A stretch of 64,000 nt of DNA from Micromonospora sp. NBC_01813. GTDB taxonomy: Bacteria > Actinomycetota > Actinomycetes > Mycobacteriales > Micromonosporaceae. Positions 1,883 through 17,117 of this stretch are shown piece by piece. A model generated the notes under the pieces. The model was not told the DNA's origin. It searched no databases and saw only the letters and a program-made list of their open reading frames with translations. Position 1 is the first letter of the stretch. The number at the start of each line of letters is the position of its first letter. The DNA is taken from positions 6,261,001 through 6,325,000 of the forward strand of contig NZ_CP109067.1 of NCBI RefSeq assembly GCF_035917335.1, given 5' to 3'. A program made the translations under genes and the position numbers.

Positions 1883-2316
1883 GGCTGCCCCGCGTACCGG
1901 GTGGCGGCGGCGCTGGTGGTGGTGCCGACCCAGGTGGGCAGGTTGAGGGTGGTTTGGGCGGCGAGGGCTTGGGTGGTCTGCCAGCGGCGGAGGGCGTCTT
2001 TGATGCGGTCGTTCTGTTCGATGGTGCGGTCGAGTTCGGCGTAGAGGATGCCGAGGTCGTGGGCGACGCGGTCGAGGAAGGCGGCGACGTCGGCGGGGTC
2101 CAGGCCGCGGCCGCGCGCCCGGCGGGGCAGGGTGGGGAAGTGGTGGGCGCGGATCTGCCAGGGCCGGATCGGCCGGTACGCGGTGGGTCGCTGGTTGCGG
2201 GCGCGGCCGTCGGGTAGCCGGTAGACGCCGCTGCCGTTGGGCCAGTCGCGCGGCGGTGTGGCGGCCATTGTGCGGCGTTGCCAGCGCAGTCGCCAGCGTC
2301 GCCAAAGTTCTCGCAT
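1879..2316 (-). CDS. DivIVA-domain-like small protein
   Basis: 145 aa, first gene of the leftward operon. Residues about 90-140 read GLDPADVAAFLDRVAHDLG followed by a heptad-like helix (LYAELDRTIEQNDRIKDALR). This matches the short DivIVA-type motif seen in many actinobacterial proteins (G-Y/L-D-P-x-x-V-x-x-F-L-x-x-V then coiled coil). The N-terminus is Arg/Trp rich (RELWRRWRLRWQRR), perhaps for membrane or nucleic-acid contact. ATG at 2316 is preferred over GTG at 2319 because the ribosome site GGGGAGGA lies 7 nt upstream of it. The stop overlaps the next start by four bases. Full DivIVA proteins are longer, so a cell-pole role cannot be assumed. Confidence 0.7.
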   Translation of the reverse strand: MRELWRRWRLRWQRRTMAATPPRDWPNGSGVYRLPDGRARNQRPTAYRPIRPWQIRAHHFPTLPRRARGRGLDPADVAAFLDRVAHDLGILYAELDRTIEQNDRIKDALRRWQTTQALAAQTTLNLPTWVGTTTSAAATRYAGQP

Positions 2317-2400
2317 CACGGGTTCCTCCCCTTGCTGGTGTGGTCTGACTCGCCTGGTGGTGGTGCGGGTCGTGTGCCGGTGCCGGGTGTACGGGTGGAT

Positions 2401-2441
2401 GGGGTGGCCCCGCCGCTTGCCGTTGCCGGCGGGGCCACCCC
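2401..2441. other. Perfect 15-bp hairpin in leader of the leftward operon
   Basis: Arms 2401-2415 and 2427-2441 are exact reverse complements (GGGGTGGCCCCGCCG), with an 11-nt loop. No T-tract follows on either strand. It lies 85-125 bases upstream of the DivIVA-like gene, between that gene and the operator clusters, so it would be in its 5' leader. Attenuator, mRNA stabiliser or protein site are all possible. The rest of 2317-2585 shows no gene. Confidence 0.6.
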
Positions 2442-2585
2442 TGCCGCCAATCGCCGCAGCCTTCCTTGGCGGTACGGCGACCAGGGCAAACCTTCGGGGC
2501 CGGGACGCCCAACGGCATGACTCGCTGACCGCCCCGACCGGGTGGATCCACTCAGCGCCGACCGAGTAGTTCCGCCTAGAACCTA

Positions 2586-2618
2586 CGTTACTGGGTACCC
2601 TGGCGCTACCCCGTAACG
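2586..2618. promoter_or_regulatory. Putative GntR operator cluster 1
   Basis: Two inverted half-boxes: CGTTACTGGGTA at 2586 and TACCCCGTAACG at 2607 (reverse complement CGTTACGGGGTA), start-to-start 21 bp. The same arrangement occurs 126 bp further on. Placed on the side of the leftward operon. Binding by the neighbouring GntR protein is inferred from position and symmetry. Confidence 0.6.
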
Positions 2619-2711
2619 CTGGTTTCTTTGCCTATCGTCACCGAACCTCATCGACTAGGCGGTGGGTGGAGGCGTCTGACGCAGGCTGCATGCTGGCGCT
2701 AAGGCGGCCTG

Positions 2712-2744
2712 CGTTACCCAGTAACGATTCAGTACCCCGTAACG
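2712..2744. promoter_or_regulatory. Putative GntR operator cluster 2
   Basis: CGTTACCCAGTAACG at 2712-2726 is itself palindromic except at its centre, and TACCCCGTAACG at 2733 repeats the second box of cluster 1. The offset between boxes is again 21 bp. It lies about 50 bases before the GntR start codon, as expected for autoregulation. Confidence 0.62.
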
Positions 2745-2796
2745 CATGTTCTCCCCGGCGTGTGGTTTCTTGGACTTGCCGACCGAGGGAGTGCCG

Positions 2797-3081
2797 ATGG
2801 CTACGCCGCTCTACCAGCAGATCGCCGACGACATAGCGGAGCAGATCCGCGCCGGGGTACTCAAGCCGGGTGACCGCCTGCCGTCGACCCGGCAGCTGAT
2901 GGCGAACTATGACGTGAGCGAGACCGTCATCCGCTTCGTGATGATCCAGCTCAAGGCGCAGAGTCTCGTCTACGGACAGCCCGGACGTGGCGTCTACGTT
3001 CGTGACCCAGCCGATGGCGACGAAAGCCCGCGCAAGCACGTGTCGCTACGGCCTGTCGAGGATCCCAAGCCGGAGCAGTGA
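2797..3081 (+). CDS. Short GntR-family transcriptional regulator
   Basis: 94 aa. The whole protein is essentially the winged helix-turn-helix of the GntR family: PLYQQIADDIAEQIRAGVL then KPGDRLPSTRQLMANYDVS (recognition region) and the wing GRGVYV. No ligand-binding domain follows, unlike full-length GntR regulators of about 240 aa. Start ATG 2797 is chosen because GAGGGAG lies just upstream and the family motif begins three residues later; the frame is open further upstream to 2746. It is divergent from the zinc-ribbon/DivIVA-like operon and probably controls both directions through the two operator clusters between them (inference). Such minimal GntR proteins are frequent on actinobacterial integrative elements. 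Confidence 0.9.
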   Translation: MATPLYQQIADDIAEQIRAGVLKPGDRLPSTRQLMANYDVSETVIRFVMIQLKAQSLVYGQPGRGVYVRDPADGDESPRKHVSLRPVEDPKPEQ

Positions 3082-3227
3082 GCTTGTTTGGTGACTTGCC
3101 GCCGAGCACCGCTTGAGCCGCATCCGGCCACGGACTCGTCTGTCCCAATCGCCTGTGGACCCTCATGTGTGGCTCGGTCGACGTTGTGTCAGAATCCAAC
3201 CTCGTTCAGTCATCGGAGGTGGCGTGG

Positions 3228-4064
3228 GTGTCAACGTGGACGGCAGAGTTCAGGCTGAGCATCACCAAGGCGTTGGCTGACCAACTGGAAGCGACTCTGC
3301 GGCCGCTCACCCCCGCCACGCTGGACAAGGATCACCTGAAGCGAGTCCAGCCCCGTCCCGGCGTCTACTGCTTGTTCCATCAGGGCGAACGGGTGTATGT
3401 CGGCAAGGCCGCCAAGTCGTTGCAGGAGCGACTTAACCAGCACCAGCGGAAGGTGACCGGCCGCGCCGGGCTCGATCCGGCGGACATCCGTTTCGTGTGT
3501 GTCTACGTCGACGAGGACCTCGACGCCGCCGCGCCCGAAAAGCTCCTGATCAAGAACTATCGGACGCACGCCAGCATCCCCTGGAACACGAACGGCTTCG
3601 GCAACAACGATCCTGGGCGTAACCGGGACGGCAGTAAGGTCAGGAGCGGGCACTTTGACGCCCTATATCCGATCGACCTGGACTTCAGCATCCGATGCGC
3701 TGAAGGCGTTATGTCAGTCGAGGCGCTGCTTGAGCAGGCGAAAACTGCCCTCCCTTTCCGGATCCGCTGTGACAGCGGCGGTGCTGCGAAGGCCGTCTAC
3801 CAGGCGAGCAACGTCCGCTTGGGCGACGAGGAGCTGACTGTGCGAGCTTGGGCCGCCAGGCTGGTCGCCGCTCTGCCGGAGGGCTGGCAGCTCACGGCGC
3901 TTCCGGGCTACCTCATCCTGTATCGCGAGGAGCGCCGTTACGAAAGCGCACTGGGATGGTGGCGTCGCAGCGCCGATAGATCGGCGCAGTTCACGCAGGG
4001 TCCGATGAACTTTGCTGCCGGACCTGCCGAGGATGACCCGGCTGAACCGAGCGATCTCGACTAG
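3228..4064 (+). CDS. Eco29kI-family GIY-YIG type II restriction endonuclease
   Basis: 278 aa. Shows the GIY-YIG nuclease fold: PGVYCLF (Y47), VYVGKA (Y57), R68-x3-H72 in LQERLNQH, catalytic-type Glu in APEKLLIKNY (E104) and the conserved PWNTNGFGNNDPG block (N120), which with HFDALYPIDLDF is characteristic of the Eco29kI family. Eco29kI itself cuts CCGCGG; specificity here is not proven. It is longer than Eco29kI (about 214 aa), with an extra C-terminal part. GTG at 3228 is preferred because GGAGG stands eight bases before it; an upstream ATG at 3165 lacks a site. It converges on the vsr/methyltransferase pair, which would supply protection and repair. Confidence 0.85.
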   Translation: MSTWTAEFRLSITKALADQLEATLRPLTPATLDKDHLKRVQPRPGVYCLFHQGERVYVGKAAKSLQERLNQHQRKVTGRAGLDPADIRFVCVYVDEDLDAAAPEKLLIKNYRTHASIPWNTNGFGNNDPGRNRDGSKVRSGHFDALYPIDLDFSIRCAEGVMSVEALLEQAKTALPFRIRCDSGGAAKAVYQASNVRLGDEELTVRAWAARLVAALPEGWQLTALPGYLILYREERRYESALGWWRRSADRSAQFTQGPMNFAAGPAEDDPAEPSDLD

Positions 4065-4075
4065 GGCCCGTAGTG

Positions 4076-4870
4076 TCAGGCTGACTGGCGCGTCGTTGCC
4101 AGCTGGCGGATCGCTTCCGCTACTCGCTCGGCTGCCTCCGCTGGGTCCTCGTGTTCCCAGAAGCGAATCACCGTCCAGCCAGCCTCGGCAAGGATCCGGT
4201 CAGTTTCTCGATCGCGTACCCGGTTGCCCTCGAACTTCTCCCGCCAGAACTGCGCGTTCCGTTGTGATGGCCGGTGGTGATCGGGGCAACTGTGCCAGAA
4301 GCAGCCGTCGATGAACACGGCGATGCGGAGCCGTGGAAACGCGATGTCGGCAGTGCGGCGGACCGATGGGACAGGCCGGAAGTTGACGCGGTACCGCAGG
4401 CCAGCCTTGTGGAGGAGCGACCGAACCTTCCGCTCCGGGCGGGTGTCACGTCCCTTGTTAGCCCGCATGATCGTCTGGACGGCTGGGCTCGACGCCCAGG
4501 ACGTGTCGCTGGCGGGCTCCTTCACCGCCAGCAGCTCACGCGACCAGGCGAGTCGCCAACCTTCGGCGAGGTTTTCCGCCCTGGTGGCGTGACTGACCTC
4601 GCCCAGGTAGCGGGCAGGAGACTTGCCGCGGTCGGACCAACGGAGATAGGCGCGGATGCGCCTGGACTTGGGCAACAACTTGAGCTCCACCGACGCGCGG
4701 GCCCGGCGCCCATCGCCAAGATCCACCCATCGCCGGTCGTGGCCGCCGGCGGCACGGTCCTGCTCGGCGACGACCGACTGCCGACTCCGACCCTTTCGGC
4801 CCTTCCACGCACGTGCGCTCGGAAGCTTGTCTGCCCAACGATGTTCTGACTGTTGAAGACCCTCGGTCAT
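4076..4870 (-). CDS. vsr: Very-short-patch repair endonuclease (Vsr) with N-terminal extension
   Basis: 264 aa. Residues about 125-264 form a complete Vsr domain: GRDTRPERKVRSLLHKAGLRYR, TADIAFPRLRIAVFIDGCFW (metal-binding D175), HSCPDHH (H193 and zinc-type Cys/His), NAQFWREKFEGN and GWTVIRFWEHE. Vsr nicks next to T in T:G mismatches that arise when 5-methylcytosine deaminates, thereby protecting sites of a C5 methyltransferase. E. coli Vsr is about 156 aa; here about 120 extra N-terminal residues of unknown role carry a charged ELKLLPKSRRIRAYLRW segment. ATG overlaps the methyltransferase stop by four bases (ATGA), so the two are co-translated. Confidence 0.93.
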   Translation of the reverse strand: MTEGLQQSEHRWADKLPSARAWKGRKGRSRQSVVAEQDRAAGGHDRRWVDLGDGRRARASVELKLLPKSRRIRAYLRWSDRGKSPARYLGEVSHATRAENLAEGWRLAWSRELLAVKEPASDTSWASSPAVQTIMRANKGRDTRPERKVRSLLHKAGLRYRVNFRPVPSVRRTADIAFPRLRIAVFIDGCFWHSCPDHHRPSQRNAQFWREKFEGNRVRDRETDRILAEAGWTVIRFWEHEDPAEAAERVAEAIRQLATTRQSA

Positions 4871-6156
4871 GGCTGCTGGTTGGCCTCGTCAAGCGCTTCG
4901 GCGATCTTGCGGGCGAAGAACTCGCCGAGAACCACGGGGACAGCGTTGCCGAGCTGCCGCATCTGCTCACCACGCGGCCCGGCGAGCTTCCAGTCATCGG
5001 GGAACGTCATCACCCGAGCCGTCTCCCGTACGGTCATGTATCGGTGTCGGTAGGCGTCCGACAACGGGTCGAGATCGTCCGTGAGCATGACGGACTCCCC
5101 GCCGGGGACGCCGTGCACGCCAGCCTTGACGGTCTTTGCCGGCCGGTCCAGCTCGTTCGGGGTGTGGCCCGCGTAGATCCGGGCACCTGGCCAGCCGATG
5201 TGATTGGTGAACCCGCCAAGCAGATGCTCCTGGCGGTCGAGTCGATCCCACGGCACGGGCGGCAGGGGCCGCTGATCGTCGTCGCCAGCGATCGCGTCGC
5301 GCAACGTGCGCCAGGGAAGGGTGTCGTCGGCGATCGTGGTCGCGCCGGACAGCCGTGACATGACCCGGCGACGGACGTGGCCGGGCACACCTGGGTGTCG
5401 ATCCCAGTAGGTCCCGTCCAGCATCGTCCGCGCCAGGGCTGACTCAGAGTGCGTCGGGCTGACTGACTGCTCGAAGCGGTCGAGGTCGACACCGAGATCG
5501 GACCTAAAAGCCACCATGATGATCCTGTTGCGGATCTGTGGCACTCCGTAATCCGCGGCGTTCACCGGAAAGGTCCGGACCTGGTAGCGCTGCTTCGGGT
5601 CGGATGGCGTCTCGTCGAGTCTGCGACGGAGGATCTCGTCGTGCTCCTGCCAGGACGCTGCCTCGTCACGCTCCTCGAACGGGAGCTGCAGCTCCCGTTC
5701 GATGTAGTCGAAGTAGGGACGGAACGACTGCCGGAGCAGACCTCGCACGTTCTCGCAGATCACGGCCTTGGGTTGGATCTCCCGGACCGCGCGGAACATC
5801 TCCGGGAACATATTGCGCTTGTCCTCATCGCCCTTGGCCACGCCGCCGAGGCTGAATGGCTGGCAGGGAGGGCCTCCGGCGATGAGGTCTACACGGTCCC
5901 ATAGATAGCTGAAGTCAACCTGCCGCACATCCCCCTCAACCAGGGGCCAGCGATCGCCGTGCGTCGGGATCCACTCATCCTCGCCACGCGTGGCGGCGGC
6001 GTTGGTCTTCAGAGTGTCACAGGCATACCTGACGATTTCGTTGACCAGGAGCGGCCGGAAACCCGCTTGGTGGACGGCCATCGCCAAGCCACCCCCGCCG
6101 GCGAAGAGTTCAACCGATGTGCGGCCTCTTAGCGGGTCTCCTAGCAGATCAGACAT
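4867..6156 (-). CDS. DNA (cytosine-5-)-methyltransferase (Dcm family)
   Basis: 429 aa. All main C5-methyltransferase motifs are readable: I (ELFAGGGG, AdoMet site), IV (GGPPCQPFS, catalytic C98), VI (ENVRG), VIII (QIRNR), IX (VRETARVMTFPDDW) and X (QLGNAVP). It probably modifies the target of the neighbouring Eco29kI-like endonuclease. ATG at 6156 is chosen; a TTG six bases upstream is the only alternative. There is no ribosome site, but a TATAGT hexamer ends seven bases before the A of ATG, which is the layout of a leaderless mRNA. vsr follows with a four-base overlap. Confidence 0.95.
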   Translation of the reverse strand: MSDLLGDPLRGRTSVELFAGGGGLAMAVHQAGFRPLLVNEIVRYACDTLKTNAAATRGEDEWIPTHGDRWPLVEGDVRQVDFSYLWDRVDLIAGGPPCQPFSLGGVAKGDEDKRNMFPEMFRAVREIQPKAVICENVRGLLRQSFRPYFDYIERELQLPFEERDEAASWQEHDEILRRRLDETPSDPKQRYQVRTFPVNAADYGVPQIRNRIIMVAFRSDLGVDLDRFEQSVSPTHSESALARTMLDGTYWDRHPGVPGHVRRRVMSRLSGATTIADDTLPWRTLRDAIAGDDDQRPLPPVPWDRLDRQEHLLGGFTNHIGWPGARIYAGHTPNELDRPAKTVKAGVHGVPGGESVMLTDDLDPLSDAYRHRYMTVRETARVMTFPDDWKLAGPRGEQMRQLGNAVPVVLGEFFARKIAEALDEANQQP

Positions 6157-6174
6157 GCGCAAACTATACCGCGG
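6157..6174 (-). promoter_or_regulatory. Leaderless promoter of the methyltransferase with embedded CCGCGG
   Basis: On the reverse strand CCGCGG (6174-6169) is followed directly by TATAGT (6168-6163), six bases, then ATG. The -10 position predicts transcription starting at the A of ATG. CCGCGG is the Eco29kI target, so modification or cleavage of the promoter itself is conceivable. Promoter call from sequence; regulation is inference. Confidence 0.5.
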
Positions 6175-6303
6175 AGTTGTAGATCTTGGAAGCGACCACG
6201 CCGCCGAACCTGGTCCCCGGCCGACTTCGACAGTGAGTGGCCATGCCCACGGTCGAGAGCCGCCGCAGGTGTGGTTGGGTAACGGGAACTCGAGGGAGAG
6301 GCG

Positions 6304-6729
6304 ATGGCGACCTGGCAGTTCGGTCCGTTCGACAACGACGAGGCAGTTGAGTGGTGTGCTGCACTAGAAGCCACCGAACCCGACCTACGTGCTGAACTGG
6401 TGCGGGCAACGCTCGCGATGGCGTCGTCGTCCGCGGGCACTCTGACCGGTGATGAGGCCGCTCGGGCCGTCGCGGCGGCTGCCGTGGTCCTTCAGATGGT
6501 CACGGGCAGACCTGTCTCGAAGTCGGCCTACAGCCCTCAACTCGTTGGAGAAGACGTCCAAGTCGGTCCGGAAGTGCGGCATTTGGCGGTACGGGCACTC
6601 GACGTCGTACTAGCTGTCGGGTCCGTGTGGCGCCAACTGTGGCACGACGACGTCGAAGAAGACGAGGCGATCGCTGTCGTTGAGACACTTCGGCGTGCCC
6701 TCCTCTCTTCGGGGCGCCATCCAGCATGA
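6304..6729 (+). CDS. DUF4259 family protein
   Basis: 141 aa. Begins MATWQFGPFDNDEAVEWCAALE, the hallmark opening of DUF4259 (M-x-T-W-x-x-G-x-F-D-N-D), followed by helices and a second half with LRRALLSSGRHP. Biochemical function is unknown; members often sit in defence or accessory islands. GAGGGAGAGG lies just before the ATG. The promoter region is shared divergently with the methyltransferase, and includes TGGGTAACG at 6276-6284, the reverse complement of nine bases of the GntR operator (possibly chance). Confidence 0.82.
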   Translation: MATWQFGPFDNDEAVEWCAALEATEPDLRAELVRATLAMASSSAGTLTGDEAARAVAAAAVVLQMVTGRPVSKSAYSPQLVGEDVQVGPEVRHLAVRALDVVLAVGSVWRQLWHDDVEEDEAIAVVETLRRALLSSGRHPA

Positions 6730-6899
6730 GCTAGTGGGACTCGCCCGCAGGGATCAGCCAGCACGGCGGCGAAGCGTCGCTGTAGGGCTGTAGTCAGGTC
6801 CCGGTAGCCTCGTACCGTCGGCGTGTAACTCCGAGGTCCCGAACCGCGCCGACGCTCGCCAGGACGCTTGCCTGACGGCGGCTCGGGCGTCCAAAGGCG

Positions 6900-9287
6900 T
6901 TGGACCCTTGCTTGAAGGAGACTACGATTACCAGGCACGAAGTGGATGTCCAGCCTCATGGGCGAATTCTTACGGTTCTGGGAGATATCGAACTATCGCA
7001 GTGGCAATGCCTCGCGGAACTCATTGACAACGCTTTCGATGACTTTCTCTCGGACGAAAGTTCGGCAGACGGGGACATGCGTCCAACCGTGAGCGTCACA
7101 CTCCCATCGAGGGCCAGCGACGCCAAGACCGCCGAAGTCTGGGTGCAGGACAACGGCCGCGGTATGACACTTAATACCTTGGAGAATGCTGTCCGGGCTG
7201 GCTGGACTAGCAACGCCCGGTACGGCTCGCTCGGTCTCTACGGCGTAGGATTCAATATCGCAACCGCGCGTTTGGGGCGCGTCACCACGATCAAGACAAC
7301 CCGCAGTGGCGATCCATCGTGGACGGTGTTGACACTCGATCTGGTTAAGCTGGCGCGTGGTGAGAGTTACATGGTTCCGGTACGCTTCGAGCCGAAGGAT
7401 CACCCTGACGAGCATGGGACGCGAATTGTCATTAGTAGCCTAAAGAATGATCAATGGCAAACGCTTTCTCGCCAGGCAAATAAGATTCGCGAGCAGCTCG
7501 GCGATGTCTACAGCTATCTGCTGCGAGAGCGAAACTTTCTGATCACGGTGAATGGAAGACGCGTCCAGCCACGTCTTCCCTGTCTATGGGATGCATCGCG
7601 TTTCGTCACAAGGAGCGGTGAAGAGGTCAAGGCGGTCTTGGAGATTGATCAATCGCTGACCCCCATGAACGCCTGCCTTGACTGCGGCTGGTGGAACCCG
7701 GTTGATGTGCAGCGATGCGGTGACTGCGATAGCGGGCGCCTCCATGAAACCATCCGTCGAATATGGGGCTGGATTGGTGTTCAGCGCTACTTCCACAAGA
7801 ACGATTATGGTATCGACTTCCTGCGTAATGGTCGGAAGATTCTTATCCGAGATAAACGCCTTTTTTACTGGGAAGATCCGGACGGGCTGGATGGGCCGGA
7901 GTTGGAGTACCCGATCGATTCGCAGCGACCCAAAGGGCGCTTTGTGGGTGAGATACACTGTGATCATGTCCCGGTCATCTATCAGAAGACCGCATTCGAG
8001 TACGATACCCCTGAATGGCGAACGGTTGTCCGCACCATCCGGGGTGATAGTCCTCTGCGCGAGAAGATTGCGCAACGGCTTGGTAGACCAATCAATATAA
8101 GTCCTTTGGCTAAGCTCTTTGCCGGATACCGCCGTGAGGACGCTGGCCTGCGATACCTCGTTCCCGGTGATGGGAAGCAAGCACTCCATGATAAGGCGAT
8201 CGAGTGGGCCGCCAGTTTTCGTGCTGGTGACCCCGAATACCAGTCCGATGACGTCTGGCATGAGGCGGCCTATCGCCACGATCACCCGATGATAGTCGAG
8301 CCTGAGGGTGAAGCTGATGTCTTCGCAGAGATGGGACTCGATGAGAGTGGTGCGTCCCAATCTGAATCCAGAGATCCGTCGCCATCCGACTCCGATGACT
8401 CGAAAGGGAGGAGTGCCCCAGTATCCAGCCAGGTTCCGGAACCTCCTGTCAAGCACGTCGAGACCTTCGATCAACGTCTCGACCGCTATCGGAAGGGCGC
8501 CGAGTCGATCATCGATCTGGCCGGGCGCTACGAGGCGACTGGTCTTGGCAATGTCGAGCTAACTGTTTGGGCGGTCCATGGGAAACCAATACATGATCCG
8601 TCGGGTCAGGAAGTTCCGATATTTACGCACATGATTCGTCCGCCAAAGGCTGAAGCTTTCGTTAACGTGACACACCCGCTCTTTACCGAGTATGGTGTCG
8701 ATGTACGAGAACTTGCTATGGTCGATCTAGCCGAGTTTATGCGAGTCCGTGGAACCGCAGCTGGGCAGGTGCCAAAACCTTTGTCGTCGGTCCTGGTGGA
8801 CATTAAGAGAAGGTCGAGCGACCAAAAGGTGACCGCTGATGCGCTGATTGCGCGGGCGTCGCGACTTCTTGACCGTATTCGTGAGGCTATGCAACGCGAG
8901 GTCAAGGGAGCGCCAACTGGGTATTGGGAGGTGGTTCTAGAAACCCAGAGGGCTGGCGCGCAGCGGAGGTTTGCGATCGAAGGCGGCGATTCGACCTGGG
9001 ACTCCGCGATCGATTCCGGAGACTTTGTTTTGTTTCTTCCGGCAAGTGCGATTGTGCGCTTGCTGGAGCGATACCCGGATGCCTTCCTGGATGGCAAGGT
9101 ATTTCGTCAACCCTACGTCAGCCTCTCTGACGAAAGTTCACGCGCGCTGGTGCTGTCTCGGCTGGCTGGTTTTGTCGGGGAACTTGCGTTGATGGAGGAG
9201 CATCGCCCCAGGTTGAGCATCGAAGAGCTGCATCGTATACGACTTGCCTGCCAACTTGTAGAGCGCGACCTCACCGACACTGATTGA
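6900..9287 (+). CDS. MORC/MutL-like GHKL ATPase, putative defence protein
   Basis: Up to 795 aa. The N-terminal GHKL ATPase has the N box ELIDNAFDD (E40, N44), the G1 box DNGRGM (84-89) and the G2 box GLYGVGFN (112-119), close to the MORC/MutL branch. A zinc ribbon follows (C259, C262, C273, C276 in CLDCGWW...CGDC), then RNGRKILIRDKRLF and a C-terminal half without a fold I recognise. Comparative genomics (Aravind and colleagues) has linked such ATPases to helicase-nuclease restriction-like systems and to the origin of eukaryotic MORC proteins. The next gene fits that. The start is unclear: TTG 6900 is the longest, but AAGGAG at 6915 points to ATT 6927; GTG 6942 is another option. Base composition is far less GC-rich than core genes. 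Confidence 0.85.
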   Translation: MDPCLKETTITRHEVDVQPHGRILTVLGDIELSQWQCLAELIDNAFDDFLSDESSADGDMRPTVSVTLPSRASDAKTAEVWVQDNGRGMTLNTLENAVRAGWTSNARYGSLGLYGVGFNIATARLGRVTTIKTTRSGDPSWTVLTLDLVKLARGESYMVPVRFEPKDHPDEHGTRIVISSLKNDQWQTLSRQANKIREQLGDVYSYLLRERNFLITVNGRRVQPRLPCLWDASRFVTRSGEEVKAVLEIDQSLTPMNACLDCGWWNPVDVQRCGDCDSGRLHETIRRIWGWIGVQRYFHKNDYGIDFLRNGRKILIRDKRLFYWEDPDGLDGPELEYPIDSQRPKGRFVGEIHCDHVPVIYQKTAFEYDTPEWRTVVRTIRGDSPLREKIAQRLGRPINISPLAKLFAGYRREDAGLRYLVPGDGKQALHDKAIEWAASFRAGDPEYQSDDVWHEAAYRHDHPMIVEPEGEADVFAEMGLDESGASQSESRDPSPSDSDDSKGRSAPVSSQVPEPPVKHVETFDQRLDRYRKGAESIIDLAGRYEATGLGNVELTVWAVHGKPIHDPSGQEVPIFTHMIRPPKAEAFVNVTHPLFTEYGVDVRELAMVDLAEFMRVRGTAAGQVPKPLSSVLVDIKRRSSDQKVTADALIARASRLLDRIREAMQREVKGAPTGYWEVVLETQRAGAQRRFAIEGGDSTWDSAIDSGDFVLFLPASAIVRLLERYPDAFLDGKVFRQPYVSLSDESSRALVLSRLAGFVGELALMEEHRPRLSIEELHRIRLACQLVERDLTDTD

Positions 9288-10964
9288 ATGATGGCTATGT
9301 CTAGTGGATTCTTGGACCCACTGTTCCTACGTGACGTCGGTCCAAACCAATTCCCACGTCAAGTGGAGCGCTTGCTGTGGCACATTGGTTTTGATGCAGT
9401 GGCGAACATTGATGGCCCAGGAGATGAAGGTGGCGATCTGCTAGGGCGAATCAAAGACCAGCAATGGGTGCTCCAATGCAAGTGGAAGCGCCAAGGCGCG
9501 GTCGGTGCGGCAGCGGTTGATGAAGTCGCGAGGGCGCGTGATGTCTACCGTGGGACCCGTGCGGCCGTGGTGACTAACACTAGACACAGCGCAGAGGCGG
9601 TCCGGCGCACCGATCAGCTTGCACTGCTCGCCTCTCGGATACAGTTGTGGCATGGTCAGACCCTGAGCCGCGCCTTCGACCAGGCCGCAGAGCGCTTCGG
9701 GCAGCTCGACCTTCGCCCCTATCAAGTCGAAGCCCGCGATCGGCTGATTGAATATCTCGACGAGACCGGCCGAGCCCTTCTTGTCCTAGCGACTGGTTTG
9801 GGTAAGACGGTGGTCAGCGGCGAGGTCGTCGATAATCATCTGCGACGGTTTCCCACCGAGAACGTTCTTGTGGTAGCCCACACAAAGGATCTTGTCGAGC
9901 AGCTGGAGAGGGCGCTGTGGAGGCACCTTTCTAAGACGGTTAAAACACGCCTACTCACTGGTGATGAGCGTCCTGATGACCTTAGTGGGATAACCTTCGC
10001 TACGCTGGGAAGTGCCTTACGCGCAGTGCGTCGTGGCTATCACCCAGGGCTCGTGGTAGTAGACGAGGCACACCATGTGGGAGAGACGGGGCAATACGGT
10101 GACCTGCTCGAGAGGCTCGACAGGGCTCGACATCTCGGCGTGACCGCGACGCCCTGGCGTGGAGACGAGTACGATATTACCGATCGTTTCGGGCCGCCTT
10201 GTTTCAGTCTTGGCATTGAGGTTGGGATGCGCCGTGGATACCTGGCGCAGGTCGACTACCGGCTTTTCGTCGACAATGTCGATTGGGATGTGGTTCGAGC
10301 GGCCAGCGAGCATGCCTACAGCCTTGCTGAACTGAATTCGCGACTCTTCCTACTTCAACGCGATGAGGCAATTCGCGATGAACTAGCAGCGGCGTGGGCC
10401 ACGACGCGCAAGCCGCGCGCGTTGGTCTTCTGCCGTACAGTTGAACATGCTGAACGCATGGCGCACCTGCTCCGGCGTAATCCACTTTGGTCCACAGCTC
10501 TTGCCATACATGCGAGGCTGTCGAAGCGCGAGCGGCAGACCCGACTCCTGGCGTTCAGAACTGGCGAGGTACCAATTCTCACTTCAGTCGACATCCTGAA
10601 CGAGGGCGTTGACGTCCCAGACGTCAATATTCTCTGCTTCGCACGCGTTACGCACAGTCGGCGAATTTTCGTGCAGCAACTCGGTCGCGGGCTGCGTCTG
10701 CGTGACGGCAAGGAACGGGTCTTGGTTCTCGACTTTATTAGCGACCTGCGCCGAATAGCTGCTGCGCTGAGTATAAAGCGGACACTGGAGGCTGACGGAG
10801 AGGTCGAGGTTCTCGCCGATGTACCCAACTCCAGCATCACCTTTTCGGATCAGCGAGTCGGGTCCTTGATGAACGAGTGGATCAAGGATGCCGCCGACCT
10901 CGAGACGGCGTATGATGAGGCTCGGCTTCAGTTTCCCGACCCACACTCTAGATCCGATTGGTGA
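9288..10964 (+). CDS. SF2 helicase with N-terminal Mrr-like nuclease domain
   Basis: 558 aa. Residues about 20-110 form an Mrr/restriction-endonuclease-like fold: GPGDEGGDLLG (D50) and VLQCKWKR (Q63-x-K65), the D...QxK active-site pattern, then AVVTNTRHS. A superfamily II helicase/translocase follows: Walker A ATGLGKT (168-174), DEAH box (259-262), SAT-like motif GVTATP and motif VI QQLGRGLRLR. Likely an ATP-driven DNA translocase-nuclease acting with the GHKL ATPase. The ATG follows the ATPase stop codon without a gap, so translation is coupled. It ends in a short tail with no added domain. Composition resembles the ATPase gene, consistent with joint transfer. Confidence 0.88.
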   Translation: MMAMSSGFLDPLFLRDVGPNQFPRQVERLLWHIGFDAVANIDGPGDEGGDLLGRIKDQQWVLQCKWKRQGAVGAAAVDEVARARDVYRGTRAAVVTNTRHSAEAVRRTDQLALLASRIQLWHGQTLSRAFDQAAERFGQLDLRPYQVEARDRLIEYLDETGRALLVLATGLGKTVVSGEVVDNHLRRFPTENVLVVAHTKDLVEQLERALWRHLSKTVKTRLLTGDERPDDLSGITFATLGSALRAVRRGYHPGLVVVDEAHHVGETGQYGDLLERLDRARHLGVTATPWRGDEYDITDRFGPPCFSLGIEVGMRRGYLAQVDYRLFVDNVDWDVVRAASEHAYSLAELNSRLFLLQRDEAIRDELAAAWATTRKPRALVFCRTVEHAERMAHLLRRNPLWSTALAIHARLSKRERQTRLLAFRTGEVPILTSVDILNEGVDVPDVNILCFARVTHSRRIFVQQLGRGLRLRDGKERVLVLDFISDLRRIAAALSIKRTLEADGEVEVLADVPNSSITFSDQRVGSLMNEWIKDAADLETAYDEARLQFPDPHSRSDW

Positions 10965-10967
10965 ATC

Positions 10968-11561
10968 TTGTCCGAGTTGCCAGAATCTATCCGCGCCCAA
11001 GTTGTCGTTGAGCTCTACCAACAGGCCGATGAGCTTGATTGGGACTTGTTATCCTTATCCGAGAAGACAAAGCAGTACCAAAAATGGATTGATGATCCAG
11101 CTGTTGGTGGTGTGCTCACCCGATTCTTGGAGCCTGGTAGGGCGCGCGTCTGGATCAAAGATGGGCCGATGAAGGAATTTGCTCGAGCCAAAGAAGGTAT
11201 CGGCCCATATGTCCAATTCGCGAAAAGTCGATTTCTTGGGCCTGAGGATCTCATTCGCCGAGTGCTAGGGGGCGGCTGGCGGGTAGTGGAGGGTTCTGTT
11301 CGTGAGAAGCCAATGCAGTGTCGAGTCTTCAATGAAGATGAAGAGCGGTCCGTGTTTTGGGGTAAGCCTCAGACTTTCCGGGACCTGGTTTGGGCCGGCG
11401 TAAATTCTTCTCTCGCTACAAGGAAGGCGCCGTTGTTGATCGTAACCCTGCATGACGGAATGTCGCTTCCGGCGGAGGAAAGGGATTGGCAGGTTGCGAT
11501 AGCTAGGCACTGTGGGTTAGAGATTGGTCACGTGCGACGGAGCCTCCGAAGGGTCGGCTAG
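10968..11561 (+). CDS. Unrecognised 197-aa protein of the ATPase/helicase operon
   Basis: I do not recognise a family. TTG start lies three bases after the helicase stop, so it belongs to the same transcript. Visible features: charged N-terminal helix (ELYQQADELDWDLLSL), SEKTKQYQKWIDD, a block ARVWIKDGPMKEFARAKEG, then KPMQCRVFNEDEERSVFWGKP and LIVTLHDGMSLPAEERDWQ, ending in a basic tail RRSLRRVG. No signal peptide, membrane segment or zinc motif. Conserved placement behind helicase-nuclease genes would suggest an accessory or specificity subunit; that is untested. Confidence 0.7.
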   Translation: MSELPESIRAQVVVELYQQADELDWDLLSLSEKTKQYQKWIDDPAVGGVLTRFLEPGRARVWIKDGPMKEFARAKEGIGPYVQFAKSRFLGPEDLIRRVLGGGWRVVEGSVREKPMQCRVFNEDEERSVFWGKPQTFRDLVWAGVNSSLATRKAPLLIVTLHDGMSLPAEERDWQVAIARHCGLEIGHVRRSLRRVG

Positions 11562-11996
11562 TTGTGGTCCACCGGGGCAGAAGCTGGGTGCCCGACTCGC
11601 ATGTTCGAAAGGCTCGCTTGCACTTATGCTGAGTTCGCTTCCGTGGATCATCAAGTGAATGCGCGATGGAACTGGACGAGTTTCTCTGGTAGGGATTCTT
11701 GGGATCGGTTTCCCCTTGGGCGGGGGGGCGAGGAGGTGTTACGCGAGCTCAACTCGGCGATCGTTAACTCCGACCGCAGCCCGGCTGTGGATGATGCGCC
11801 GACGAGGCGGACAAGCTCAAGTCGTCGATCCGACGGGTTCCTGGCTGCTCGAAAGGAGCTGGTCGTCAAGGCCAGCGCCGCCGGCATTCTCTCCGCAGCC
11901 TGGCCAAACGCTGTGCGTAGCCGCCTGTCTATTGATGTGTCGGGCCTGTCTCCTGCGCCCAGCTCGGATTGGCTGCGTCCCTGCGGGTCGGGGTAG
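11562..11996 (+). CDS. Hypothetical 144-aa ORF, possibly degraded
   Basis: TTG directly follows the stop of the previous gene, so coupling is possible. The first 75 residues look protein-like (MFERLACTYAEFASVDHQVN, RWNWTSFSGRDSWDRFPLG, EEVLRELNSAI); the remainder is Arg/Ser-rich and loses coding character, and other frames are equally open there. I see no domain. It may be a true small gene whose 3' part was replaced, or the junction between the low-GC operon and the GC-rich HNH gene. Confidence 0.35.
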   Translation: MWSTGAEAGCPTRMFERLACTYAEFASVDHQVNARWNWTSFSGRDSWDRFPLGRGGEEVLRELNSAIVNSDRSPAVDDAPTRRTSSSRRSDGFLAARKELVVKASAAGILSAAWPNAVRSRLSIDVSGLSPAPSSDWLRPCGSG

Positions 11997-12067
11997 TCCC
12001 ATCCTCGGGGCGCCCGCCGGTTGCGATGTTGATTCATCGCGCAACTTGTATAGAAAGACGAGGGTTG

Positions 12068-13066
12068 GTGCCAAATCTCCGGGACTACCTCGACATCCGG
12101 CTGGCTTCCGCATGTGATCAGTGGCATTCGATCATCGATCGGACTCCGGTCACTGAGGGCAGCAGGCAGGTTGCCTTTCTGCCGGTCGAGACACTTATCT
12201 GCCTCGCCGCAAGCTTGTTGGTCAACCACCGCAAGTACGGAGGCTCCACGGCTCACCGGGCGGTCGAACCGGTACCCACGCTCGCGCGGCTGTTTCGGAG
12301 GCCCAACAGCAGCGTCCTGGCCAAGATGGCGAACCTCGACGGAAGTCGACGCAACGGCGCGAAGCACGAAGTCGAGGTCGCTGCGCGGCTCCTCGCGGAG
12401 CCCGGGCAGCTCGGCGCTGCCTACCGGATTCTGATCACCGCTGCGCGAAGTGTCGGCGTCGGGCCGGCGGCCTTGCCCGATTTCCTTGGCTTGGCCGGCA
12501 ACGAGGACGACCTTCTCCTGATCGGCCAGCGCGAACTGGATGAGGCAGACATCGTCACCGCTATTCGCCCAGCGGTGGAGGTCTGGCGGGAGTCACGGAC
12601 CGACCTGGACGAGCGGACGACAGAACGTCTTTTGATGGCGGCCGTTAGAGTCGGCCAGCACCGGTTCGCTAGCGAGGTGTTGCGCAATCACGGGCATCGG
12701 TGTGTCTTTTGTGGCCTCTCAGTCGCACTTCCCGAGAAGCGGGCGGCGCGGATGCTCATCGCCAGCCACATCAAGCCGTGGCGGGAGTGCACCCACGCCG
12801 AACGGCTCGACGCGCGCAACGGGCTGACCGCCTGCCCTACACACGACGTTGCGTTCGACACCGGCCTGATGACCGTCAACGGCGGGCTGCGCATCCACCT
12901 CAAGCCGGCCCTTGCTGCAGCCGTCCAAGCAGATCCGGCCGCCCGCGCAGCGTTTGGGCGCCCTCCGCTGGCCGAGAAGTTGCTCCTGCCGGACGCCGCG
13001 ATGCCTCCCGACGCCAAGTATCTTGCCTGGCATCGTCAGCACATCTTCGAGGAGGCGGCGAGCTGA
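12068..13066 (+). CDS. HNH endonuclease family protein
   Basis: 332 aa from GTG 12068, chosen because the protein then begins with PNLRDYLDIRLASAC; the frame is open upstream to 11969. The N-terminal two-thirds are an uncharacterised region (NHRKYGGSTAHRAVEP, AKMANLDGSRRNGAKHE). The C-terminal HNH_2-type nuclease shows CVFCGL (about 212-217), ASHIKPWRE (first His, about 234) and RNGLTACPTHDVAFDTGL (Asn and second His). Probably cuts DNA, perhaps modified or foreign. Its codons are GC-rich, unlike the ATPase/helicase operon just upstream, so it may be a separate acquisition within the same island. Confidence 0.85.
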   Translation: MPNLRDYLDIRLASACDQWHSIIDRTPVTEGSRQVAFLPVETLICLAASLLVNHRKYGGSTAHRAVEPVPTLARLFRRPNSSVLAKMANLDGSRRNGAKHEVEVAARLLAEPGQLGAAYRILITAARSVGVGPAALPDFLGLAGNEDDLLLIGQRELDEADIVTAIRPAVEVWRESRTDLDERTTERLLMAAVRVGQHRFASEVLRNHGHRCVFCGLSVALPEKRAARMLIASHIKPWRECTHAERLDARNGLTACPTHDVAFDTGLMTVNGGLRIHLKPALAAAVQADPAARAAFGRPPLAEKLLLPDAAMPPDAKYLAWHRQHIFEEAAS

Positions 13067-13155
13067 GGAACTTTCGCAGGGGGGCGGACTTCCTTGATGA
13101 GGCAGAGTCCGGAGGTCTGGTCAGGTAGTAGATCGGAAGCGGCCCTCACGAGCTG

Positions 13156-13554
13156 TCAGCGGTAGCAGTGCACAACCCGCCGCTGCTCCAGGCCCGTCGA
13201 CGCTAGCGCGACGGCGAGGATCAATTCGCCTAGTTTTTGCTCTGTGCCGTAGGCGACCAGCTCGCCGGACGCTTCGTTGATGCTGTTTAGGCCCGACAGG
13301 CGCGCTGCCTCGGTGATCGCTCCGGCTAGCCTTCCGTGATCGAGGTCCACGCCGGCCAAAGACAGGAGTGTGGCGGCTGCAGCGCGATCCGTGACACGGT
13401 AGCCGTCGCTCACTGGCTCGACCAGGAGGCGGACGGCGTCACCGTCGCAATACGTGAGTGGTAGATCGATGAGTACGCCGTCGCCGTACGGCTGGGCGGT
13501 GCTGCGGTCATCGACAGCCCGTAGGACCACGTCGATAGCGACCTTGCCGTTCAT
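13156..13554 (-). CDS. Short DUF1828 domain protein, possibly truncated
   Basis: 132 aa. The central part (DGVLIDLPLTYCDGDAVRL, VSDGYRVTDRAAAATLLSLAG) matches DUF1828, whose members usually run to about 250 aa with a further C-terminal part. Here the frame stops after RRVVHCYR, so the gene may be a 3'-truncated remnant. ATG 13554 is preferred, with GGGGGTGG just upstream; an ATG four codons earlier is possible. It ends 90 bases from the HNH gene, to which it converges. DUF1828 genes occur in defence and mobile regions, but the function is unknown. Confidence 0.65.
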   Translation of the reverse strand: MNGKVAIDVVLRAVDDRSTAQPYGDGVLIDLPLTYCDGDAVRLLVEPVSDGYRVTDRAAAATLLSLAGVDLDHGRLAGAITEAARLSGLNSINEASGELVAYGTEQKLGELILAVALASTGLEQRRVVHCYR

Positions 13555-13770
13555 GACCACCCCCATTGGGGTTCGCTCGCGGGCAGGCAGCTCTTCGTGA
13601 CGACCGCTTCGACCATATCCATCGTGCCGTACGCCGTCATCGCACTTCTTATCGCCACGCCGGTTGGCTCGTCGTATGTAGACGAGCCGCAGGCGATGCG
13701 AGGCCTCAGCGGCGGACGGTGTGGTTGACTGGGTGGCGCGTACGTACGGAGCGGGCCGAGGGGGTGGCGG

Positions 13771-14400
13771 GTGGTGCAGTTGCCGGCGGTGCTCGGTGAG
13801 CCGATCCGGTTCGTACTGAACTGGGGTCGCCGCTACTCGCTCTGGGTGTTCAACTTCGGCCTGGCCTGCTGCGCGATCGAGTTCATCGCCACCAGCATGG
13901 GCCGGCACGACTTCATCCGGCTCGGTGTCATCCCGTTCGCCCACGGGCCGCGCCAGGCGGACCTGATGGTCGTCTCCGGCACCGTCACCGACAAGATGGC
14001 GCCGGCGATCAAGCGGCTCTACGACCAGATGCCCGAGCCCAAGTACGTCATCTCGTTCGGTGCCTGCTCCAACTGTGGCGGCCCGTACTGGGACTCGTAC
14101 TCGGTGACCAAGGGCGTCGACCAGCTGATCCCGGTCGACGTGTACGTGCCCGGCTGCCCGCCCCGGCCCGAAGCGCTGCTGCACGGCATCCTGCGCCTGC
14201 AAGACAAGATCGCCGCCGAGCGCTCCGGCATCGGCGGCGTGCACCGGCCCGACCCGCTTGTCTCCCCGGTCGACCTGGCCGCCGACCCGGCCACTGGCCC
14301 AGGGGACCCGGCTACCGGTTCGGCCGGGCAGCAGCAGAGCGCCCGGCCGAAGTCGGTCGACGCGCTCACCGCACCGGTCGTCAAACCACCGACCCGCTGA
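13771..14400 (+). CDS. nuoB: NADH-quinone oxidoreductase subunit B (NuoB), isolated copy
   Basis: 209 aa. Complex I subunit that carries the N2 [4Fe-4S] cluster: [10 protein letters not shown] (adjacent cysteines), [15 protein letters not shown] and [16 protein letters not shown] provide the four ligands. A Pro/Ala-rich C-terminal tail of about 50 residues is extra. GTG start with GAGGGGGTGG before it. Normally nuoA precedes and nuoC/D follow; neither neighbour is here, and the next nuo gene lies 7.2 kb downstream. It is the 5' fragment of the partial second nuo cluster found in many actinomycetes. Confidence 0.95.
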
Positions 14401-14455
14401 GCGGTGCCATCTTCTACGGCCGGCTGAAGACCACCCGGTGCGCGACCCGGCGCGG

Positions 14456-14959
14456 TCAACCGGTCGGATCGCCGAGTGTGACCCTCGCCCGCTGCCCGCC
14501 GCCGCGTCCCTGCCCATGCACGGTCGCGTACTGGCCGAGGAGTTCGCGAGTGTTGTGGACAGCCAGCTGGTTGGTGAGGTAGTCGAGCAGGCGCGCTCGA
14601 CTTCCATCGGCATAGTGGACCTGACTCTGGTCGACAAACCTGCCCAGGCCCCGGTCGTACCCGTCCAGGAGTTCCTGTGATCGTTGCGCGGCTGCGTACG
14701 CTTCGGTCGTCAGCCAGTGGGGGATGTTCCGGCCGTACCCGGCCATCTGCGTGTTCAGGTCGTCAAGCCGGTAGGAAGCCGCGACGACCGGCGTATAGGG
14801 ATGGGCTCTGTCGAAGGATCGGCGGTGCTCATCAGGCATGGCTCGCCGTACGGCTTCGGCCCCCTGCTGTCTGACCAGGTCGTGGCCGTTCCGTGGCGCG
14901 GGTGGATCCTCGAAGATCATGCTGGTCGCTGATCCGCCCTGACCCAGGTAGCCACTCAT
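14456..14959 (-). CDS. Hypothetical 167-aa protein
   Basis: Not recognised. ATG 14959 is supported by GGAGAACGGAG five bases upstream; the frame is open further upstream but without a start as well placed. Hydrophilic, with SFDRAHPYTPVVAASYRLDDL, a helix-rich middle (LTTEAYAAAQRSQELLDGYDRGL) and a Gly/Arg-rich C-terminus (GQGRGGGQRAR). No signal peptide or membrane segment. It is antiparallel to nuoB and part of the block separating nuoB from nuoC. Confidence 0.6.
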   Translation of the reverse strand: MSGYLGQGGSATSMIFEDPPAPRNGHDLVRQQGAEAVRRAMPDEHRRSFDRAHPYTPVVAASYRLDDLNTQMAGYGRNIPHWLTTEAYAAAQRSQELLDGYDRGLGRFVDQSQVHYADGSRARLLDYLTNQLAVHNTRELLGQYATVHGQGRGGGQRARVTLGDPTG

Positions 14960-15129
14960 GGTGTCTCCGTTCTCCATGGAAACGCGGTGCCACCCACCCC
15001 GGGTGAGTGGAACGGCAGTCACTCTTCGCGGCTTGACGGCCCGCCCCCCACGTCGGTTCACCACCGCGGGCATCTTTTTCATCGCCGATGGGCCAAAGGT
15101 GTTGCCTTCGCGCGCTAGCGTTCCCACCC

Positions 15130-16449
15130 GTGAGTGAGACTCAGCGCGCGACGCAGATCGTCGACATCCTGACCGCCGAGTTCGGCGACCTGATGGCCAT
15201 CGACCCGGCCGCCTTCCGGCGCAAGTTCCGCAAGATGGCCGCCAGCCCGTTCGCGTTCTACCGGGGCAGCGCCTGCCTGTTCTACGCCGACCAGACCGAG
15301 CCCGGCGGGCAGTTCAACGACGACAGCTTCTGCGACGAGCGGACCAGCCGGGTCTGGATCCACGGTGACCTGCATGCGGAGAACTTCGGCACCTACATGA
15401 ACGGCTCCGGCGAGCTGGTCTTCAACGTCAACGACTTCGACGAGGCGTACGTCGGCCCGTTCCTCTGGGACCTGCGCCGCTTCGCCGCCAGCGTCGCCCT
15501 GATCGGCTACGCCAAGGCGCTCTCCGACGACGTCATCGGCACCCTGGTCCGGCGGTTCGCCACCGCGTACCTGACCGAGCTGCGGGCGATCGTGGCCGGC
15601 GGAGACGACGCGATCGGCTCGATCACGTTGGCCAACGCCGACGGGGTGCTGCGCCACGTGCTGCAGGAGGCCCGGCTCAACACCCGGGTCGCCCTGCTCG
15701 ACAACATCACCACGATCAACGACTACGAGCGGCGGTTCATCGTCCGCGACGGCGTGTTCGAGGTCGGCGACGACGACCGGGCGGCGGTGATCGCCGCGTT
15801 CGCCGACTACCTGACGACGTTGCCGCAGCGGGCCGGCGGGGGCCGGGCGGTCGCCGCCCAGATCAAGGACATCGTGCTACGCAAGGGCGTCGGCATCGGC
15901 TCGGCCGGGCTGCCGTCGTACAGCATCCTGCTCGAAGGCCACACCCAGGCGTTGGAGAACGACGTCATCGTCTACATGAAGCAGGCTCAGGTGCCGGCCG
16001 TCGCCCGGCACATCGACGACGACGGCATCCGCTCCTACTTCCAGCACCAGGGCCACCGGACGGCGGAGTCGCAGCGGGCCTTGCAGGCGCACGCCGACCC
16101 GTGGCTGGGCTTCACCGAGCTGGGCGGTGTCGGGCAGCTGGTCGCCGAGGTGTCGCCGTACGCCGCCGATCTCGACTGGGCCGACGTGAACGAGCTGACC
16201 GAACTGACCGGCGTGGTCGCCGACCTGGCCCACTCGGTGGCCCGGATGCACTCGGTCGCCGACGACGAATCCAGCCACGACCTGGTCGATTTCTCCACCG
16301 AGGAGGCGATCGTCGCGGCCGTCGACAAGGACGAGGCCGGGTTCGTCGAGGGCCTGGTCGACTTCGCCCATCGGTACGGGGCCCGCGCCCGCACCGACCA
16401 CCGGATCTTCGTCGACCTGTTCCGCAACGGCCAACTGCCCTGGGTCTGA
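15130..16449 (+). CDS. DUF2252 family protein
   Basis: 439 aa from GTG 15130. Shows the family core: FRRKFRKMAASPFAFYRGSACLFY, WIHGDLHAENFGTY and FNVNDFDEAYVGPFLWDLRR, followed by SYSILLEGHTQALENDVIVYMKQAQ and a C-terminal HSVARMH. The HGDLHxxN and DFDE patterns recall aminoglycoside-phosphotransferase/kinase-like folds, and DUF2252 is placed near that group, but no substrate is known. An ATG 42 bases upstream adds residues without family character. No clear ribosome site precedes either start. Confidence 0.85.
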   Translation: MSETQRATQIVDILTAEFGDLMAIDPAAFRRKFRKMAASPFAFYRGSACLFYADQTEPGGQFNDDSFCDERTSRVWIHGDLHAENFGTYMNGSGELVFNVNDFDEAYVGPFLWDLRRFAASVALIGYAKALSDDVIGTLVRRFATAYLTELRAIVAGGDDAIGSITLANADGVLRHVLQEARLNTRVALLDNITTINDYERRFIVRDGVFEVGDDDRAAVIAAFADYLTTLPQRAGGGRAVAAQIKDIVLRKGVGIGSAGLPSYSILLEGHTQALENDVIVYMKQAQVPAVARHIDDDGIRSYFQHQGHRTAESQRALQAHADPWLGFTELGGVGQLVAEVSPYAADLDWADVNELTELTGVVADLAHSVARMHSVADDESSHDLVDFSTEEAIVAAVDKDEAGFVEGLVDFAHRYGARARTDHRIFVDLFRNGQLPWV

Positions 16450-16494
16450 GCCGGCGGGCCCGGCAGACGCCATCGGCGCGTCCGCGCGGGCGGA

Positions 16495-17088: not shown

Positions 17089-17117
17089 GAGCGATCACCC
17101 TTCCCGCCTGGATATCC

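Follow-up and report, generated by a model that had tools for sequence, protein, structure and literature searches.

What kind of system is encoded by a compact, GC-poor operon in Micromonospora sp. NBC_01813 in which a GHKL ATPase is followed by a nuclease-helicase fusion, and which of the surrounding genes belong to it? The operon lies within a 64,000-nucleotide stretch of this genome, a single contig of 7.63 Mb (NZ_CP109067.1, positions 6,261,001 to 6,325,000). We refer to the whole stretch as the window and use its numbering throughout. The original prediction, made from the sequence, described four tightly coupled genes for a GHKL ATPase with a zinc ribbon, a helicase fused to an Mrr-like nuclease, a 197-aa protein and a 144-aa open reading frame (ORF), preceded by a DUF4259 gene, and proposed a defence system in which a DNA-sensing ATPase loads or gates a translocating nuclease. 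We found that three of these four genes recur in fixed order across genera, together with genes for a C5-cytosine DNA methyltransferase and a Vsr endonuclease. Judging by this gene content, the island is reasonably likely to encode an ATP-dependent restriction-modification (R-M) system in which a MORC-type ATPase would gate a translocating Mrr nuclease.

Conserved gene content and order

The window proteins were searched against Pfam, PADLOC and NCBIfam. On the forward strand, the gene at 6900-9287 encodes a MORC-type GHKL ATPase with an S5 domain and a C-terminal domain (HATPase_c_3, E 3.1e-12), and its true start probably lies within 6900-6942, since the conserved sequence begins near 6942. 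It is followed on the same strand by a gene (9288-10964) whose product joins an Mrr-type nuclease (residues 15-128; Mrr_cat, E 5.4e-15) to an SF2 helicase (ResIII, E 9.1e-26; Helicase_C, E 9.7e-20), and then by the gene for the 197-aa protein (10968-11561, forward strand), which we name S197. Along 6900-11561 the two stop-to-start gaps are 0 and 3 nt, and the three genes have 54-59% GC against about 63-74% in 1-kb windows on both sides; the tight coupling and low GC first noted are therefore real for these genes. Upstream, on the reverse strand, lie the genes for a C5-cytosine methyltransferase resembling M.DrdVII (4867-6162; DNA_methylase, E 2.6e-50) and a Vsr endonuclease with an N-terminal extension (4076-4870; TIGR00632, E 8.2e-35).

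An ATPase alignment was scanned against a collection in which each of 84,980 species is represented by one genome, and the best 80 of 108 places encoding an ATPase relative were taken, with the window, as a sample of 81 loci. We turned the window proteins and their matches into hidden Markov models (HMMs) and searched every frame of 60 aa or more in these loci, detecting the ATPase in 81, the helicase in 79, the methylase in 78, Vsr in 76 and S197 in 75. The helicase directly follows the ATPase in all 74 loci (of the 80) with at least 2.6 kb downstream of the ATPase, and S197 directly follows the helicase in 73 of these 74; adjacency in L064 and L074, included in both counts, was taken from their coordinates. 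The sole exception, L055, has a sigma-70-region-4 protein in the place of S197. With start codons guessed by alignment, the commonest gap is an overlap of 4 nt, both between ATPase and helicase (43/78) and between helicase and S197 (27/74).

Moreover, 52 loci extend 9 kb or more to either side of the ATPase; in these, hereafter the fully covered loci, the methylase is present in all 52 and Vsr in 51. The loci without a methylase number three of 80, namely two short contigs and L016. In one group (e.g. L028-L032) the genes form a single unbroken run, ATPase-helicase-S197-Vsr-methylase. The four-gene frame was therefore too narrow, given that methylase and Vsr belong as well, and the conservation of gene order on which it was to be judged extends across genera for the ATPase, the helicase and S197 but not for the 144-aa ORF.

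Most loci are labelled Actinomycetota; the labels also name a spirochete, a myxobacterium, a delta-proteobacterium and a chloroflexus (metagenome bins may be mislabelled). The full set of five genes is found in Actinomycetota and in one locus each with the label spirochete (L037), delta-proteobacterium (L047) and Chloroflexi (L089). A tblastn search of 72,556 plasmid records gave six matches to the ATPase and two to S197, and each of four plasmids examined, from Ruegeria, Rhodococcus, Pseudosulfitobacter and Deinococcus, encodes the ATPase, the helicase and a small protein matched by the S197 HMM (E 1e-53 to 1e-21). The Ruegeria plasmid carries methylase, Vsr, ATPase, helicase and S197, the Deinococcus plasmid has the same set with no Vsr annotated, and the Pseudosulfitobacter plasmid has an IS3 transposase between ATPase and helicase. 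None of 50,697 phage records matched the ATPase (E 1e-6).

The active sites are intact. We aligned 74 sets, one for each locus, the window among them, in which methylase, ATPase, helicase and S197 are all full-length. Invariant in all 74 are E26, D29, N30, D70, G72, G74, G98, G101 and G103 of the ATPase (numbering from 6942), which we take to be its GHKL motifs, residues that we likewise take to be the Walker, DEAH and QxxR motifs of the helicase, and D50, Q63 and K65 of the Mrr domain. The ATPase zinc ribbon (CxxC..CxxC; 7674-7727, forward strand) is inserted ahead of a MORC-like signature, and its cysteines C245, C248, C259 and C262 are also invariant in the 74 sets. Thus both the zinc-ribbon ATPase and the Mrr-helicase fusion were correctly recognised at the outset.

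For the ATPase alignment the window protein was joined by 65 of 78 full-length ATPases, near-duplicates having been removed by hand. In a PDB profile search MORC3 and MORC4 took the top three of five places, the other two being ribosomal zinc ribbons, and a Foldseek search with the ATPase model returned MORC4 as the top two, with Hsp90/TRAP1 next at similar E-values. Both searches place the protein, among GHKL proteins, closest to the eukaryotic MORC ATPases, which silence DNA. The window helicase was matched in NCBIfam by RadD (E 8.3e-37), the EcoAI R subunit (E 9.4e-31) and XPB (E 1e-14), and by these scores appears closer to RadD than to XPB/Rad25.

S197, its methylase and the exchange of engines

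S197 is a specific, unnamed component of the operon. The window protein has no match in Pfam, PADLOC or NCBIfam at E 0.1 and no sequence relative in the PDB (best E 0.96), and an alignment of 67 members (66 of 74 picks plus the window protein, with near-duplicates removed by hand and PIN-fused frames excluded) found no family in Pfam, giving 16 scattered weak matches (best E 0.034). Residues W25, Y37, W40, G47, L50, R60, W62, K64, D65, P67, K69, R73, A74, G77, G79, G101, K114, P115, W131, L140 and W142 are kept in at least 90% of the 67. A confident AlphaFold2 model (pLDDT 95.9) has a helical N-terminal half, which bears the basic tryptophan motif WIKDGPMKE, and an alpha/beta C-terminal half. 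Its best Foldseek matches are EcoT38I and AF2093 (probability 0.99; TM 0.32-0.35; E 0.009-0.018), found amid clamp-loader and Hsp70 matches, so that a restriction endonuclease (RE)-like fold of the model is only hinted at. Past residue 70 no acidic position is kept in at least 80% of the 74 sequences, and a role as nuclease is therefore unlikely. We rejected S197 as a PD-(D/E)XK enzyme on this lack of conserved acidic core residues and on the weakness of the fold matches, and as a relative of the helicase on an hhalign probability of 0.4%.

A second copy of S197 is fused to a PIN_8 nuclease in three of the 80 loci (L017 and L084 by Pfam, L019 by similarity). In L013 and L023 a similar PIN protein, in which the S197 HMM detects nothing, adjoins Vsr, and on the Ruegeria and Pseudosulfitobacter plasmids a PIN-like gene lies directly 3′ of S197.

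S197 was also used to lead searches of overlapping draws of 394, 200 and 249 genomes (10 matches each), and among the matches listed it occurs in 23 distinct genomes, its own included. Two phylum-wide draws of 396 genomes returned its own genome alone, a lower bound with at most eight candidates scored per genome. In 20 of the 23 genomes (window included) an Mrr-SF2 helicase lies upstream of S197 on the same strand. In the other three (G050, G862 and G1084) S197 is accompanied by MzaB, MzaD and the Z1 protein MzaC of the MZA system, as identified by PADLOC for G050 and by similarity to the G050 proteins for G862 and G1084. S197 directly follows Z1 in G050 and G862, and the order in G1084 is MzaB-MzaD-MzaC-methylase-Vsr-S197. 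All three encode Vsr and a methylase like that of the window (72% identical in G050; E 5e-178 or better in each) with the signature KAGxHGxPGGE. A single MzaE query found none in the 16-18 kb of these three loci (the G1084 stretch starts inside MzaB, and MzaE may lie further upstream), and the MZA locus of a sister genome of the window (G005) has MzaE and no S197. S197 seems to stand in place of MzaE within MzaB-D-C engines.

In a FastTree phylogeny the three MZA-type copies of S197 do not form one group; the smallest clade that they share holds 22 sequences, including the window (support 0.868). S197 thus accompanies this methylase type plus an engine of GHKL ATPase and helicase, and which of the engines that is can vary. 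Tentatively, S197 could be a portable, non-catalytic specificity or adaptor subunit of a YCGCGR-type methylase, one that steers interchangeable GHKL-helicase-nuclease engines to unmethylated sites. The engines would be MORC with Mrr-SF2 or MzaB-D-C, and the fusions to PIN_8 would be a further form of the same subunit; we hold this possible rather than probable. If true, a subunit shared by two ATP-dependent engines would mean that such systems consist of a part that reads the site or serves as adaptor, and a motor that can be exchanged.

What site might the methylase read? Plasmid pDrdI of Deinococcus wulumuqiensis 479 carries the MORC operon, and the whole record holds one C5-methylase, adjoining the ATPase (two stretches, one frame). 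A 5-methylcytosine (5mC) methylase of pDrdI, M.DrdVII, has the site YCGCGR (PMC6430315), and we infer that it is the product of the gene beside the ATPase. A further study reports 5mC at YCGCGR in a sample of Deinococcus radiodurans (PMC8112702). The window methylase is 41% identical to the pDrdI enzyme over 422 columns, the target-recognition region included, and within the 74 sets segment 331-360 of this region is better conserved than the nine others of the methylase (0.83 vs 0.48-0.76). From this kinship we predict a CGCG-type site for the window methylase, YCGCGR or close to it. The Eco29kI site, CCGCGG, fits within YCGCGR. Among 77 methylases the strict signature PGARxY is present in 56, KAGxHGxPGG in 58 and both in 38, and some relatives may thus read a different site.

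About 130 aa at the N-terminus of the window's Vsr form an extension ahead of the part matched by the vsr model (residues 132-241). Among 75 relatives (starts guessed) Vsr is 240-319 aa long in 53 and 140-159 aa in 15.

Proposed restriction and its rivals

An architecture of this kind has been predicted before. Iyer, Abhiman and Aravind (2008) proposed prokaryotic MORC R-M operons in which a Rad25-like SF2 helicase is fused to an RE-fold nuclease, and passages of their paper describe a GHKL and S5 ATPase of MORC type, a cytosine methylase, Vsr and, in some operons, HNH genes (PMC2292703). The window has this content, with its SF2 helicase-nuclease fusion and a cytosine methylase and Vsr nearby. 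Its helicase matches RadD better than XPB, and the text passages of the 2008 paper name neither a third protein of about 200 aa in operons of this type nor a zinc ribbon inside the ATPase (its figures may draw small proteins), nor an Eco29kI-like nuclease, PIN_8 fusions, a link to YCGCGR or an exchange with MZA. What is new here is S197, the kinship of the methylase with that of pDrdI, and the occurrence of S197 with an MZA engine. No experiments on a bacterial MORC R-M operon were among the literature matches listed. With the minimal set of methylase, MORC ATPase, Mrr-helicase and S197, and a site that is likely known, the 2008 prediction can be put to a direct test, in a strain with a published methylome.

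Our proposal runs as follows. The C5-methylase would mark host DNA at a CGCG-type site and the 5mC would protect it, with Vsr repairing the T:G mismatches that arise from 5mC deamination. On unmarked DNA, the MORC ATPase would close as an ATP-driven clamp, S197 would couple this clamp to the SF2 translocase, and the N-terminal Mrr domain of the translocase would cut. Where an Eco29kI-like nuclease is present, it may cut that site as well, in a simple manner. For S197 we consider a non-catalytic role most likely, as an adaptor or as a reader of the site, because its association with such a methylase persists where an MZA engine replaces the MORC ATPase and Mrr-helicase. An ATPase paired with a helicase-nuclease, as originally proposed, is retained in this scheme, but the constant presence of the methylase in the fully covered loci fits methylation-protected restriction better than a stand-alone DNA sensor.

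Several observations weigh against this R-M reading. The 80 loci are the nearest ATPase relatives, and the constancy of the methylase holds for those alone; L010, which encodes a distant MORC-like ATPase, has no methylase or helicase recognised by eye in its 18-kb ORF list (no HMM search was made). L016 has no methylase or Vsr in the 9.7 kb before and 6 kb after its ATPase. Conversely, G005 has a 91%-identical methylase without MORC ATPase, helicase or S197, and the Eco29kI-like nuclease could be the real restriction enzyme in the 26 of 52 fully covered loci that have it. The strict MORC S5 motif of 2008, GhXhhpXXRhl, is absent from its place. Column by column, all positions fit except position 10, where a hydrophobic residue is called for but 73 of the 74 sets have Lys and one has Arg; 50 sets read GIDFLRNGRKI, and the one match to the strict pattern must come from another part of its protein. 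Restriction by DrdVII goes unmentioned in PMC6430315, although the table there gives DrdI too by its methylase alone, so this silence says little. Lastly, with helicase distance removed, distances of S197 correlate with those of the ATPase C-terminal domain at r 0.49 (p 0.001) and with those of the methylase at r 0.14 (p 0.001), both p values being optimistic for related sequences, whereas the ATPase domains show no such correlation with the methylase (r -0.04 and -0.07). S197 thus follows the MORC C-terminal domain more than the methylase, as expected of a partner of MORC rather than of a site reader.

The strongest rival splits the island in two: methylase and Eco29kI-like nuclease would form a simple type II R-M system, and MORC, helicase and S197 a separate defence co-inherited with it. 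In G005 the methylase, Vsr and a match to the GIY/Eco29kI HMM stand together without the MORC operon. Moreover, across the 74 sets the protein distances of ATPase, helicase and S197 correlate mutually at r 0.89-0.96, but with those of the methylase at r 0.49-0.54. However, the ATPase keeps company with the methylase in all fully covered loci and with the nuclease in just half of them, and in the group that includes L028-L032 one gene run joins ATPase, helicase and S197 to Vsr and methylase. We regard the two-system explanation as unlikely. Eco29kI-type R-M systems do resemble the window in having a related GIY-YIG nuclease beside a C5-methylase, but the window adds Vsr and an ATP-dependent MORC/Mrr-helicase/S197 module, and no such nuclease was found in half of the fully covered relatives.

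Mrr-family domains often act on modified DNA, and the operon might instead mount a type IV-like attack on foreign modified DNA, with the methylase as a passenger. The best PADLOC match of the helicase is indeed a type IV model, through its helicase part (among the best 25 of 38 matches). A resident 5mC methylase in every fully covered locus nevertheless speaks for protection rather than attack, and no modified-base reader was recognised in the system, which leaves this explanation quite improbable. Very improbable is a repair role, in which MORC, helicase and S197 would assist Vsr in MutL/UvrD-like correction of methylase-made T:G mismatches: Vsr is indeed present in 51 of 52 fully covered loci and the MutL-Vsr and MutL-UvrD pairs are GHKL precedents discussed in PMC2292703, but Vsr and methylase occur without the MORC operon in G005 and in a second sister genome (G002), L055 retains ATPase and helicase but lacks Vsr, the examined stretch of pDrdI has no annotated Vsr either, and Vsr-type repair would need no Mrr nuclease site, here invariant.

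Returning to R-M by a gated Mrr nuclease, two further systems invite comparison. MZA (MzaA-E) likewise has GHKL ATPase, helicase and nuclease genes, and experiments on it are said to have been described by Gao et al. in 2020. The window is not an MZA locus: a query with Z1 (MzaC) found none in positions 1-20000 (MzaD and MzaE were not queried there), no MZA model is among the PADLOC matches listed for the methylase (best 25 of 62) or helicase (best 25 of 38), and the NCBIfam MzaB model matches the ATPase weakly (17.1 bits, cut-off 850). The Shedu protein VcSduA, which is reported to act against phages, has an N-terminal GHKL ATPase of a kind formerly called paraMORC3 that is proposed to control a PD-(D/E)XK nuclease, as part of PMC12137116 describes. 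It resembles the window in that pairing but is a single chain that includes the nuclease, and this description contains no helicase, methylase or S197.

A chromosomal hotspot and its passengers

The flanks of the island are present in six other genomes of the genus, and the content between them varies. At this site G005 has MZA genes with DUF4259, methylase, Vsr and the match to the GIY/Eco29kI HMM, and no MORC operon; its methylase and Vsr are 91% and 92% identical to those of the window. G006 has DISARM-type genes (DrmA, DrmB and DrmD models) with a methylase and an HNH protein, G002 has a different methylase with Vsr, and G001, G003 and G004 have short stretches without a match to the families of the window. 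PADLOC covered the proteins of G005 and G006. The site thus holds MZA, DISARM or Vsr-methylase genes in three of six sister genomes, in keeping with the defence setting first suggested. The same genome has a second copy of the left flank (window 1-2541), 94% identical, at 7441123-7443679, and sister genomes have copies at several places; this repeat is a possible recombination anchor of the hotspot.

Elsewhere, L036, L007 and L027 have three genes (about 574, 1020 and 410-425 aa) inserted between Vsr and ATPase, the first two of which resemble the DrmB/DrmA-type proteins of G006 by eye; DISARM may thus nest inside a MORC island. Furthermore, L128, a 54.6-kb predicted viral contig from IMG/VR, unites the genes for methylase, GIY-YIG nuclease, MORC ATPase, helicase and S197, and the island may therefore ride on a prophage.

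Among the remaining genes of the window, that at 3165-4064 (forward strand) encodes a GIY-YIG/Eco29kI-like restriction endonuclease (RE_Eco29kI, E 6.1e-10; GIY-YIG, E 1.9e-6). It is a variable member, detected by HMM in 36 of the 81 loci; such nucleases fall into two clusters, in 20 and 17 loci, and Pfam confirmed the Eco29kI domain in one member of each. The gene at 6304-6729 (forward strand) does encode a DUF4259 protein (PF14078, E 1.6e-19) as predicted, but it is an unlikely partner of the ATPase and was rejected as a core member, because it occurs in five of the 81 loci and in L123 adjoins the methylase where the MORC operon is absent. The two small downstream proteins also parted ways: S197 is a specific component, and the 144-aa ORF (11562-11996, forward strand) we judged not to be a gene, as it has no family, no relatives in the 80 loci and GC contents by codon position (0.59/0.61/0.67) unlike those of a gene; its HMM found the window itself alone. 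An HNH_2 protein of 332 aa (12068-13066, forward strand; E 1.4e-9) occurs in two of the 81 loci, window included, and was set aside as an island passenger. Its identity is 80% with the HNH protein that G006 encodes at its DISARM-bearing site, and 54% with another HNH protein lying close to the methylase of L008.

A sigma-70 region 4 protein of about 455 aa is encoded in 23 of the 81 loci (L040, 14679-16043, where the domain was checked), in many of them after S197, and is perhaps another DNA-binding component. The distant ATPase of L010 (G023 C6, 7581-9875) is a second MORC-like protein; it has a zinc ribbon, and inspection by eye suggests a helix-turn-helix at its N-terminus. A match on a Streptomyces plasmid (H4) is annotated as a helix-turn-helix protein.

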